In this document: piece by piece, positions 11,985 to 18,460 of the stretch
How the letters are laid out: each line of letters begins with the position of its first letter
Position numbering within the stretch: position 1 is the stretch's first letter
From: a virus
IMG/VR virus record: IMGVR_UViG_3300038397_000168
Span: 1 to 22,280 of that record
Length of the DNA stretch: 22,280 bases
Direction: 5' to 3' (one strand)
Notes under the pieces: generated by a model
Database searches by the model: none
Seen by the model: the letters and a program-made list of their open reading frames with translations, nothing else
What the model was told of the DNA's origin: nothing
Position numbers and translations under genes: made by a program

Positions 11985-12010
11985 CCACCACAGCCTTCGG
12001 GCACTGAACG

Positions 12011-12046
12011 GGACCGGGCACCTTTGCCCGGTCCTGTTTGGTTTTT
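12011..12046 (+). terminator. Intrinsic terminator after capsid gene
   Basis: GGACCGGGCA (12011-12020), loop cctt and TGCCCGGTCC (12025-12034) form a perfect 10-bp GC-rich stem followed by TGTTTGGTTTTT. This is the strongest intrinsic terminator in the window and isolates the capsid message from downstream genes. Confidence 0.9.
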
Positions 12047-12514: not shown

Positions 12515-12847
12515 GTGAAGCGCTCTGGACCACCAAAGCGCAAGACCCGCCTCAACGCTATGAGTAGCGTGCGGAGAGCCGAACTCAGTATGCGTAAACG
12601 GGTCAGAGAAGAAGTTCTCGAAAGGGATGCGTACAAGTGTGTTGCTAAACACCTGGTAGGGGATGTAGAGTGTTGGGGTCCTCTAGATGTAGATGAACTA
12701 CTTCCCAGAGGACGAGGGGGGGACTGGTTAGACCCTGGCAACTGTCAGGTCCTATGTCGGGCCCACCACGATTGGAAACACTTACATCCACGTGAGGCAG
12801 TTTCTCTAGGCCTCACCAGAAGCCGAAAGAGTTACAACGACCCGTGA
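12515..12847 (+). CDS. HNH endonuclease-like protein
   Basis: This 110-residue protein has a basic N-terminus and a compact HNH fold: Cys42 and Cys53 as the first zinc pair, LDVDELLPRGRGG (58-69), the Asn at 76 in DPGNCQVLC, Cys77/Cys81 as possible further ligands, and HHDWKH (84-89). The first His of HNH is replaced: the position reads Asp60-Glu61. HNH nucleases in phages usually sit beside terminase and assist packaging; here it is among lysis and regulatory genes. The start is GTG 12515, with no strong ribosome-binding site. The stop overlaps the next GTG (GTGA). Confidence 0.82.
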   Translation: MKRSGPPKRKTRLNAMSSVRRAELSMRKRVREEVLERDAYKCVAKHLVGDVECWGPLDVDELLPRGRGGDWLDPGNCQVLCRAHHDWKHLHPREAVSLGLTRSRKSYNDP

Positions 12848-13746
12848 AGGAGACTCAGTGGTTACCGCGCATTATGGTTGGACTGATTGGGTCGGCGGTG
12901 ATGATCCTGTTCGCAGGAACCCACACCGCATCTCAAGGGACTGACTTCTCAGAAGCCACACGGGATGTCGGTTATTATCAACCAGGGGGTGGTACAGGTC
13001 TCGACCTGAGGAAAAGCCGTACATCGGAGCCTCAGGGACAGGGGTTCGATTCCCCTCACCTCCACCAGGTTGGCGTCGGGGCTGTCGTCGTTATAGTCCC
13101 CTCCACCTCGGCCGTTCCGGCGCCGACCACTACAACGATGGCCACATTCACCCGAGTGCAAACGGATGCGGTTGCACTGCCCCCACCGAGGTCCACCAAC
13201 TCCATGACCGGCCAAGAGTACCGGTATTTCGAGCGGTCTCAAGATGTCATCACCCTCCAGGTGGAACTTGGAATGCGGTCCGTTGACGGCATCTACGGGC
13301 CGCAGACACGCAAGGCGCACGTTGATGCGCTCGGTGGTCCGCACGCCGTCCTCTACCGAAACTACCCGGAGATCGGACAGACACCGATCCCCTGCTCTCA
13401 CGGTTGCCTGCCAGGTGACGAACATTACGAACTTCCGACCCTTGGGACACTCATCGACGAGTATTTCAAGCCCGAGGACAGGGCGCTGGCACGCATGATC
13501 GCCTTCTGTGAATCAAGCGGCCAGACCCATAACATCGGGTCGGACGTGGTGTCCGATGCTCTCGCCGTCGGCTGGTTCCAACACTTGGCCAAATACTGGG
13601 TTGAGCGCTCCACAAAGGCCGGCTTCAAGGACCACGACCCGTTCAACGGGCGAGCCAACGTCGGTGTCGCTGCGTGGTTGTTCTACACCAGTGGGAAACA
13701 CCACTGGAATCCAAGCAAAGCCTGTTGGGGGGATGTCGATGCCTGA
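12844..13746 (+). CDS. Exported peptidoglycan-binding / SLT-type lysozyme
   Basis: A 300-residue ORF starting with GTG overlapping the HNH stop. Residues 8-30 form a signal or membrane anchor. Residues 85-115 are a Thr/Pro-rich linker. Residues 130-160 match the PG_binding_1 repeat (DVITLQVELG then VDGIYGPQTRKA). Residues 216-300 are a lysozyme-like SLT domain: AFCESSG (catalytic candidate Glu223), VGWFQHLAKYW (242-252), NVGVAAWLF and a final HWNPSKACW. It should cleave the host wall in lysis or entry. Codons 48-75 coincide with a tmRNA-like sequence, so the reading frame runs through an RNA gene. ATG 13138 (codon 99) is an alternative start giving a product without the export signal. Confidence 0.82.
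   Translation: MKETQWLPRIMVGLIGSAVMILFAGTHTASQGTDFSEATRDVGYYQPGGGTGLDLRKSRTSEPQGQGFDSPHLHQVGVGAVVVIVPSTSAVPAPTTTTMATFTRVQTDAVALPPPRSTNSMTGQEYRYFERSQDVITLQVELGMRSVDGIYGPQTRKAHVDALGGPHAVLYRNYPEIGQTPIPCSHGCLPGDEHYELPTLGTLIDEYFKPEDRALARMIAFCESSGQTHNIGSDVVSDALAVGWFQHLAKYWVERSTKAGFKDHDPFNGRANVGVAAWLFYTSGKHHWNPSKACWGDVDA
12973..12978 (+). promoter_or_regulatory. -10 box of the tmRNA-like RNA (TATTAT)
   Basis: TATTAT ends six bases before G12985, the first acceptor-stem base of the RNA, so transcription from it would begin at the mature 5' end. No clear -35 is visible. Confidence 0.5.
12985..13067 (+). ncRNA. tmRNA tRNA-like-domain RNA without messenger domain (83 nt)
   Basis: 5' acceptor strand GGGGGTG (12985-12991) pairs with CACCTCC (13057-13063). 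The only non-Watson-Crick pair is G3-U70, the alanine identity element; base 73 is A and CCA is encoded (13065-13067). Bases 12997-13005 read GGTCTCGAC, one mismatch from the GGTTTCGAC of tmRNA D-loops as I know them. CCTGAGG (13005-13011) and CCTCAGG (13030-13036) make a 7-bp helix in the P2 position, with CCG/CGG inside. The T-arm is perfect: AGGGG, loop TTCGATT, CCCCT (13040-13056). There is no anticodon arm, tag ORF or pseudoknot; bacterial tmRNAs are about 350 nt. Alternatives: a degenerate ssrA fragment acquired at an attachment site, or an odd tRNA, which fits poorly. Confidence 0.72.
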
Positions 13747-13932: not shown

Positions 13933-13960
13933 CCATGTGATAATGGTGGGTGTCACATGG
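13933..13960. promoter_or_regulatory. whiB promoter with 8-bp inverted-repeat operator
   Basis: CCATGTGA (13933-13940) and TCACATGG (13953-13960) are perfect inverted repeats around 12 bases. They enclose the -10 box GATAAT (13939-13944) and the GTG start at 13950. A dimeric protein bound here would block the promoter and start codon. Confidence 0.55.
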
Positions 13961-14279
13961 CGGCGAAATCTCAATGCCCAGAGCGGAATCCGCTGGTTGG
14001 GATAACCCCGAACGGGTACTCGCCATCGAACGTCCTGGCTGGCAAACCGACAGTTTGTGCAGGGGCTCTGATACCCCTGAAATCTTCTTTCCGTCGCCTG
14101 GCGATACGGAGGCCCTCAAGGCCGCCAAGGCAACCTGCGGTCAGTGCCCGGTAGTCCAGGACTGCTTGAGATATGCCCTTGATAACAACGAACGGTATGG
14201 TATCTGGGGTGGGAAGAGCACCCGTGAGCGTTTGCTTATTCTCCGGGCAAAGAGGATGATTGAGAAGGGCGAAGCCTAA
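13950..14279 (+). CDS. whiB: Second WhiB-family Fe-S transcriptional regulator
   Basis: 109 residues from GTG 13950, five bases after a GATAAT box; ATG 13974 is the alternative start. The four cluster cysteines are Cys37, then Cys63-x2-Cys66-x5-Cys72, and the signature GIWGG is at 84-88, followed by a basic C-terminus (RAKRMIEKG). It is clearly paralogous in architecture to the WhiB at 3275 but differs in most positions, so the two were probably acquired separately or diverged long ago. It lies immediately before the head-tail connection genes and may time late expression. The operator-like repeat suggests autoregulation or repression. Confidence 0.92.
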   Translation: MSHGGEISMPRAESAGWDNPERVLAIERPGWQTDSLCRGSDTPEIFFPSPGDTEALKAAKATCGQCPVVQDCLRYALDNNERYGIWGGKSTRERLLILRAKRMIEKGEA

Positions 14280-17962: not shown

Positions 17963-18022
17963 ACAGATTCTCAACCCCCACTTGAGGGTGAAGGTTGGGA
18001 CCTATAAGGGGTAGTTGAGGCT

Positions 18023-18460
18023 ATGCCAACATTCGTAGAGCGCCTGTCGGCGCAGAAGTTCTCTTCGGCAGCATCGACCGCTTTCGACATCTTTGTGTCC
18101 GGTGACTCAAATGCCCGCATAGCCGTTGACGCTGGCGGCAAGATGACCTGGGGCCCCGGTGATGGGGCTGGCGATGTCACCCTGTACCGGTCCGCTGCGA
18201 ACGCCCTCAAGACCGACGACACTTTCCAGGCCGCTGCTGGTCTCCTCACCCTCACCACCTCTGGGGCCCCGTCGACCGCTTTGGCTGACGGCGCACTGGC
18301 GATTGACACGAGCAACAACAAGATGTATTTCAGGTCGTCGTCAGCCTGGGTGGACGCAACAGCACACGGCATTTCCACAACCAGCGCTGACGGTGGGAAC
18401 GCCGACGCGTATGTCCGGTATCACGTAAACGCCGACGGTGGCGGCGCCACCGCTAACTAG
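18023..18460 (+). CDS. Short fibre-type protein
   Basis: 145 residues, containing IAVDAGGKMTWGPGDGAGDVTLYRSAANALKTDD and GALAIDTSNNKMYFRSSSAW, both common fibre segments. There is no known enzymatic motif. It probably forms an accessory fibre or fibre tip between the two larger fibre genes. TATAAG at 18003-18008 may be a -10 box, and GAGG is close before the ATG. The 60-base gap after the previous gene has no strong hairpin. Confidence 0.65.
   Translation: MPTFVERLSAQKFSSAASTAFDIFVSGDSNARIAVDAGGKMTWGPGDGAGDVTLYRSAANALKTDDTFQAAAGLLTLTTSGAPSTALADGALAIDTSNNKMYFRSSSAWVDATAHGISTTSADGGNADAYVRYHVNADGGGATAN

Follow-up and report, generated by a model that had tools for sequence, protein, structure and literature searches.

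A tagless tmRNA carried in frame within a phage protein gene belongs to a large class of phage RNAs

Background

Trans-translation is present in nearly all bacteria. In the tmRNA of E. coli, contacts with SmpB involve A15, U17, C18, G19, and A334, the last of which lines the SmpB Trp122 pocket; the mutation G19C abolishes SmpB binding, and G3-U70 is stated to be the AlaRS determinant of tmRNA (PMC8363625). Tagless versions of this molecule are already known from one phage and from organelles. Mycobacteriophage DS6A has a tmRNA listed as "TLD only" (tRNA-like domain; tmID 11587; PMC4131195 Table 2; PMC11915505), and a tRNA-like domain without a tag frame likewise makes up the tagless tmRNAs of Mallomonadaceae plastids, where they measure ~65 bp, and of oomycete mitochondria (PMC11915505). 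PMC4131195 and PMC11915505 report from Mao et al. (2009) that a DS6A-like molecule is a strong inhibitor of tmRNA in E. coli whether or not it can be charged, perhaps by titrating SmpB. Other phages (GodonK, S-CAM1, DLP6, Melnitz) also carry ssrA, one-piece or permuted and often near tRNAs, but as full-length genes with a messenger domain that ARAGORN and Rfam find complete.

Here, we analyze a 22,280-nt stretch of viral DNA (IMG/VR record IMGVR_UViG_3300038397_000168, positions 1 to 22,280; "the window") holding an 83-nt RNA that, like the tagless molecules above, lacks the tag frame. The preliminary description of this RNA had taken tagless tmRNAs to be not known from phages, which the DS6A entry corrects. 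DS6A is nonetheless one listed case, likened to ours by description, whereas the class reported here spans many lineages and includes long, short, and D-loop-divergent forms. Within the literature searched, mostly papers outside subscription, what appears to be new is the breadth of the class and its divergent subgroup, its covariation-backed structure with a conserved apical module, an alanine determinant that was tested against alternatives, and a copy, that of the window, embedded in frame in a protein gene.

Results

An 83-nt tmRNA without a messenger domain

The Rfam tmRNA model (RF00023) aligned end to end with the element in a cmscan search (65.7 bits against a cut-off of 47, E = 7.5e-24), spanning model positions 1-374 without truncation, with 16 nt standing for 308 skipped positions. 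The messenger domain—resume codon, tag frame, stop, and pseudoknots—is absent, as the preliminary description had proposed, and only two hairpins fit. With bacterial one-piece tmRNA the element shares the G3-U70 acceptor, the UCGAC D-loop, GGAC, the T arm, and the C21-G pair, whereas its length is 83 nt rather than ~370. A canonical tRNA is not the better fit: ARAGORN called no tRNA or tmRNA in the window, although it does recognize phage tRNA-Ala genes bearing this acceptor, and the element has neither the anticodon arm nor the D stem of tRNA-Ala. Resemblance to the tRNA-like mascRNA/menRNA family is weak (RF01684, 23.1 bits against a cut-off of 42.5), and those RNAs are eukaryotic and without the tmRNA D-loop. 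Phage-encoded and with little beyond the tRNA-like domain, the element is almost certainly a tmRNA cut down to that domain and a member of a wider phage class.

All parts first read by eye are present (Table 1), including the acceptor, in which 7/7 positions pair and the sole wobble is 3-70 (G12987-U13061), A73, the encoded CCA, and a D-loop, GGAC, and T arm of tmRNA type; numbering matches that of E. coli tmRNA through the D-loop motif and at A334. The P2-like helix also stood as described, but the hairpin that caps it (CCG-TACAT-CGG, 13017-13027) had been overlooked, as had the reading frame running through the RNA; most class copies have a conserved extra hairpin here. From base frequencies, the class consensus of the apical module is AAARCCG-CAYG-CGGA, strictly kept among Streptomyces phages. 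The folding z-score (-2.05) is modest by itself, whereas homology and covariation together are strong evidence. A class model, R1, gave the element 90.8 bits, the element itself being among its seven seeds.

Table 1. Features of the window at and around the tagless tmRNA
Feature	Coordinates	Strand	Basis or remark
HNH endonuclease gene, upstream of RNA	12515..12847	+	Stop overlaps start of ORF 12844-13746
300-aa ORF: signal/TM N-terminus, variable linker, conserved C-terminal domain	12844..13746	+	RNA in frame inside linker
Block without any difference from L044	12976..13091	+	L044 otherwise 87% identical over 6.6 kb
Tagless tmRNA: tRNA-like domain and one arm, encoded CCA	12985..13067	+	RF00023, 83 nt
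Acceptor 5' strand GGGGGTG, G3 = 12987	12985..12991	+	Paired in 72/72 aligned sequences
D-loop UCGAC = U17 C18 G19 A20 C21 (E. coli tmRNA numbering)	13001..13005	+	Within GG..TCTCGAC
P2-like helix 5' strand CCTGAGG	13005..13011	+	7/8 model pairs change on both sides
Apical module AAAAG-CCG-TACAT-CGG-AG replacing messenger domain	13012..13029	+	Base frequencies
P2-like helix 3' strand CCTCAGG	13030..13036	+	Covariance alignment
GA = G333 A334 of E. coli tmRNA	13037..13038	+	A (13038) in 72/72
T arm AGGGG-TTCGATT-CCCCT	13040..13056	+	Paired in all 72 sequences; both sides changed at 3 pairs
Acceptor 3' strand CACCTCC, U70 = 13061	13057..13063	+	Covariance alignment
A73 (13064) and encoded CCA (13065-13067)	13064..13067	+	Sequence

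A large class of defined size

A first class pattern, which fixed UCGAC together with the T arm and the 5' acceptor, allowed a gap of 12-42 nt, and left out the 3' acceptor, matched at least 119 viral loci. Nearly all of the matches listed end in CANCTCCA, though the 3' acceptor was absent from the pattern. With a gap of 43-73 nt, a full scan returned only 18 matches, and the class thus has a defined size. From a sample of IMG/VR, we recovered at least 102 distinct TCGAC-type copies of up to 82 nt, from at least 144 loci and falling into at least 45 clusters at 80% identity; most were found with patterns fixing UCGAC, and these totals are lower bounds. Lengths to A73 peak at 78-80 nt (a long form with an inner hairpin) and at ~63 nt (a short form with a single hairpin). 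The encoded CCA is optional (55 of 160 elements), and A73 is present in 159 of 160. Further unannotated copies were found by blastn in cultured Streptomyces phages and one Stenotrophomonas phage. As judged by sequence, the window element is one of a large class across many phage lineages rather than an isolated oddity.

Covariation and an invariant alanine determinant

Because the acceptor came out misplaced when 39 copies were simply aligned with MAFFT, we built a covariance model from equal-length copies (n = 7) and used it to align 72 distinct sequences. Helix cells were paired in 95.7% of cases (68.5 in shuffled data), double-change cells numbered 450 (144 shuffled), and the covariation score was 0.654, compared with 0.128 after shuffling and no more than 0.089 when partners were slid; an alignment fitted to a model favors pairing, but the contrast with slid versions is nonetheless very large. 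Compensatory changes, with both sides altered, occur at 16/23 pairs, so the paired bases are conserved in relatives, which the preliminary description had named as a point on which its reading could fail.

Amid this variation, position 3-70 is G-U in all 72 aligned sequences, while many versions of 5-68 and 6-67 and three of 4-69 occur, bearing out the alanine identity pair first noted in the window copy; across the class, G3-U70 is found in 159/160 elements. Some search patterns fixed G3, hence we ran separate scans with G3 unfixed. A pattern free at 3-70 and across the whole 5' strand yielded at least 28 new, perfectly paired copies, all with G3-U70, and a scan of the whole collection for a G3-C70 version of the element found none. 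Matches to an A3-U70 variant numbered 37, none of them genuine; five were G3-U70 copies with A4-U69 read one base out of register. Acceptors of cultured phages vary at 4-69 (U-A in LuckySocke and BRock), 5-68, 6-67, and 7-66 (U-A in Jojan60), with G3-U70 constant. The class RNAs are, on this comparative evidence, under strong structural (purifying) selection.

SmpB-contact bases and D-loop-divergent RNAs

The equivalent of A334, a position specified by no search pattern, is A in 72/72 sequences; conservation of UCGAC, by contrast, is not independent evidence, because the motif was built into most patterns. The comparison with actinobacterial ssrA suggested in the preliminary description showed UCGAC and GGAC in all 31 tmRNAs read, and these also have the acceptor with G3-U70, the T arm, and the C21-G pair. 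The idea that the arm arose when part of a host tmRNA was deleted found no support, the longest exact stretch in common being 10 nt.

A pattern that left the D-loop free returned at least 44 tRNA genes, nearly all tRNA-Ala, and at least 32 additional RNAs that have no anticodon arm and pair at 7/7 acceptor positions. A few of these RNAs have D-loops one base off (UUGAC, UAGAC, UCGAU), others are without the motif, and some still pass RF00023. Among the matches listed, AC precedes the T stem in 28 of 34 D-loop-divergent copies, compared with 1 of 42 tRNA-Ala genes. RNAs of this kind (L365, L366, L378, L380, L384, L403, L434, L436, L439, and others; 73-98 nt) keep G3-U70 and often an AAAGCC..GGA hairpin, without the tmRNA UCGAC D-loop. 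They possibly constitute a separate class, and since some anticodon-less alanine-type RNAs have lost UCGAC, use of SmpB may not extend to every member of the wider group.

Phage specificity

Among 119 rows returned by a similar pattern from GTDB genomes, two copies were genuine, the rest being mainly tRNA-Ser or chance; both genuine copies sit in MAGs with a full tmRNA on another contig. Most of 148 Actinomycetes genomes had a full tmRNA, and two had an extra over-cut-off match of ~80 nt. A second over-cut-off match, of 81 nt (G063:C13:64027-64107), lies in an actinobacterial genome that has a full tmRNA as well. In 45 phage records, over-cut-off tmRNA matches are ~80 nt, with no full-length tmRNA besides the element (0/45) and no phage-encoded SmpB (0/45, in a search positive in 10/14 control genomes). 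The phage class differs here from the organellar tagless tmRNAs, which are reduced forms of an ancestral bacterial gene accompanied, in oomycetes, by a nucleus-encoded SmpB.

A structured RNA in frame within a protein gene

The window copy lies within an ORF of 300 codons to which neither PHROGs nor Pfam gave a name. Its neighbors are the HNH gene, WhiB, and structural genes, with no adjacent integrase. In four relatives (L044, L061, L478, L481), an RNA at this position has hardly changed although its surroundings diverge, and the frame runs open through it; the ORF is open in five relatives, where either side of the RNA has both synonymous and nonsynonymous changes. Across the window, L044, and L061, 27/27 RNA codons are identical, while both flanks show synonymous and nonsynonymous changes. 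For L044, 87% identical over 6.6 kb, the chance of 116 nt (12976-13091) without change would be ~1e-7 under uniform 13% divergence. Four other relatives (L472, L474, L475, L479), with capsid proteins 89-91% identical (L475 over 90 residues only), share the HNH gene and encode this protein too, but its linker is a different one and the stretch compared contains no RNA. The RNA is thus an accessory gene for which a variable linker makes room without loss of the reading frame. The HNH gene was considered as a mobility partner of the RNA and rejected, as relatives without the RNA have it too.

Elsewhere in the window, the WhiB-like regulator gene (13950-14279), situated among head-tail genes, points to an actinobacterial host. 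Immediately following the major capsid gene, a strong hairpin of ~18 bp (12003-12044), weakly matching a plastid 3' UTR family, is likely a terminator or processing hairpin.

Genomic settings and exchange

Neighbors of the class RNAs vary by lineage, with arrangements including terminase large subunit (TerL)-RNA-portal, protease-RNA-major capsid (MCP), exonuclease-RNA, and tRNA arrays, the last in Streptomyces phages LuckySocke, BRock, Shaeky, GiJojo, pSt2308, and Alone3; the copy of Stenotrophomonas virus Jojan60 also lies among tRNAs. The element is on its neighbors' strand in 77/96 and 64/90 cases. The RNA of LuckySocke (17977-18057 of its record) is identical to that of GiJojo though the flanks differ, while it differs from that of Alone3 although the flanks are near-identical, which argues that the RNA is exchanged as a unit. 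The Alone3 copy (L468:1487-1566) has a broken T stem, falls below the cut-off, and looks like a recombinant of two copies.

No RNA annotation covers the cultured-phage copies. Gene 44 of GiJojo ("hypothetical protein," L471:1490-1732) is annotated over a tagless tmRNA and is probably spurious, and the Jojan60 CDS UPU15879.1 (L466:581-721) overlaps the start of one at 693-775. On one viral contig, a type II hammerhead ribozyme (L393:974-1038, minus strand; 44.1 bits, cut-off 37) and a tagless tmRNA lie ~1.3 kb apart.

Discussion

The breadth of the class, together with an alanine determinant that is invariant amid covarying neighbors, suggests that phages repeatedly need an alanylated tmRNA mimic. 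The class makes it testable whether trans-translation is an antiviral pathway and would supply natural inhibitors of a drug target; phage annotation based on ARAGORN misses it, and the window copy adds the case of a structured RNA gene living in frame within the linker of a protein gene.

We propose, at about a 50% probability, that the RNA acts as an alanine-charged, SmpB-binding decoy that is dominant negative on host trans-translation. The RNA would be cut out of the late transcript, charged with alanine by host AlaRS via G3-U70, and bound by host SmpB at its D-loop and variable-loop bases and by EF-Tu-GTP at its acceptor and T arms; as the preliminary description anticipated, alanylation and recognition by both proteins are probable from the sequence determinants. 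The complex would compete with host tmRNA for SmpB and enter stalled ribosomes, where, the RNA having no resume codon, the ribosome would therefore not switch to a tag template. The net effect would be to disable host trans-translation and any SmpB-tmRNA-dependent defense, to the presumed benefit of the phage. Speculatively, one reason to carry such bait might lie in the CoCoNuTs, predicted RNA-targeting defense systems, some of which have SmpB-like domains with a predicted affinity for tmRNA (PMC11090510). A broader proposition—that tagless alanine-charged tmRNA mimics are a widespread anti-rescue weapon of phages, swappable cassettes with an apical recognition module that shut down trans-translation or bait SmpB-like defense domains—we advance tentatively, somewhat short of even odds.

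Because G3-U70 is invariant even though uncharged RNA also inhibits in the accounts of the DS6A-like molecule, charging appears to matter beyond titration. A need for charging fits ribosome jamming and, equally, tagless rescue, in which the RNA, with host SmpB and EF-Tu, would enter stalled ribosomes, take the nascent chain onto its alanine, and leave as peptidyl-RNA for hydrolysis, freeing ribosomes and sparing phage proteins the tag, as proposed for organellar tagless tmRNAs. Such rescue would account for the alanine determinant better than passive titration, and in the mitochondria of oomycetes tagless tmRNAs do occur together with an imported SmpB (PMC4131195, PMC11915505). We consider it unlikely, however, given that those papers report the DS6A-like RNA as an inhibitor in E. 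coli and that the cycle has no known ending without a messenger domain and stop codon. Slightly less likely again is a role outside trans-translation, whether as an AlaRS/EF-Tu decoy, an alanine donor, or bait for RNA-targeting defense. The D-loop-divergent RNAs, which keep the T arm as well as G3-U70, would suit this explanation, as would the sequence conservation of the apical module, a hairpin left unexplained by the SmpB-binding decoy model; yet the window RNA and all UCGAC-type copies keep a tmRNA-specific D-loop and A334 that are absent from tRNA-Ala.

The position of the RNA in structural-gene operons of several lineages, mostly on the neighbors' strand, is what would be expected of a mascRNA-like processing element, at which RNase P and 3'-end enzymes cut a late polycistronic mRNA and release a functionless RNA. 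That explanation is improbable, since processing has no need for G3-U70, A73, A334, or the apical module, and many copies lie in tRNA arrays. Least credible, and in our view very nearly dismissed, is a functionless attachment-site or ssrA remnant, an option raised in the preliminary description that we have dropped. Phages do integrate in ssrA, and Mycobacterium phages Milly (L465:1501-1531) and Shandong1 (L323:2501-2546) carry a 3' segment of the tRNA-like domain just upstream of a tyrosine integrase, probably the attP for ssrA. These genuine remnants look different from the window element, holding the 3' segment only (with no RF00023 match at the Milly locus), whereas in the window element both halves covary, no integrase is adjacent, and the arm has no more than 10 nt in common with bacterial tmRNA loci; covariation and frozen synonymous sites refute the remnant reading.

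Full tmRNA genes of permuted or cyanobacterial type were also seen in several cultured phages with no tmRNA among their listed features (L462, L463, L467, L470, L325, L327, L324), namely Acinetobacter phage BUCT628, Alcaligenes phage QDWS595, Stenotrophomonas phage DLP_6, Xanthomonas phage XacN1, Pseudomonas phage PaMx31, Ruegeria phage RpAliso, and Synechococcus phage S-CAM1.
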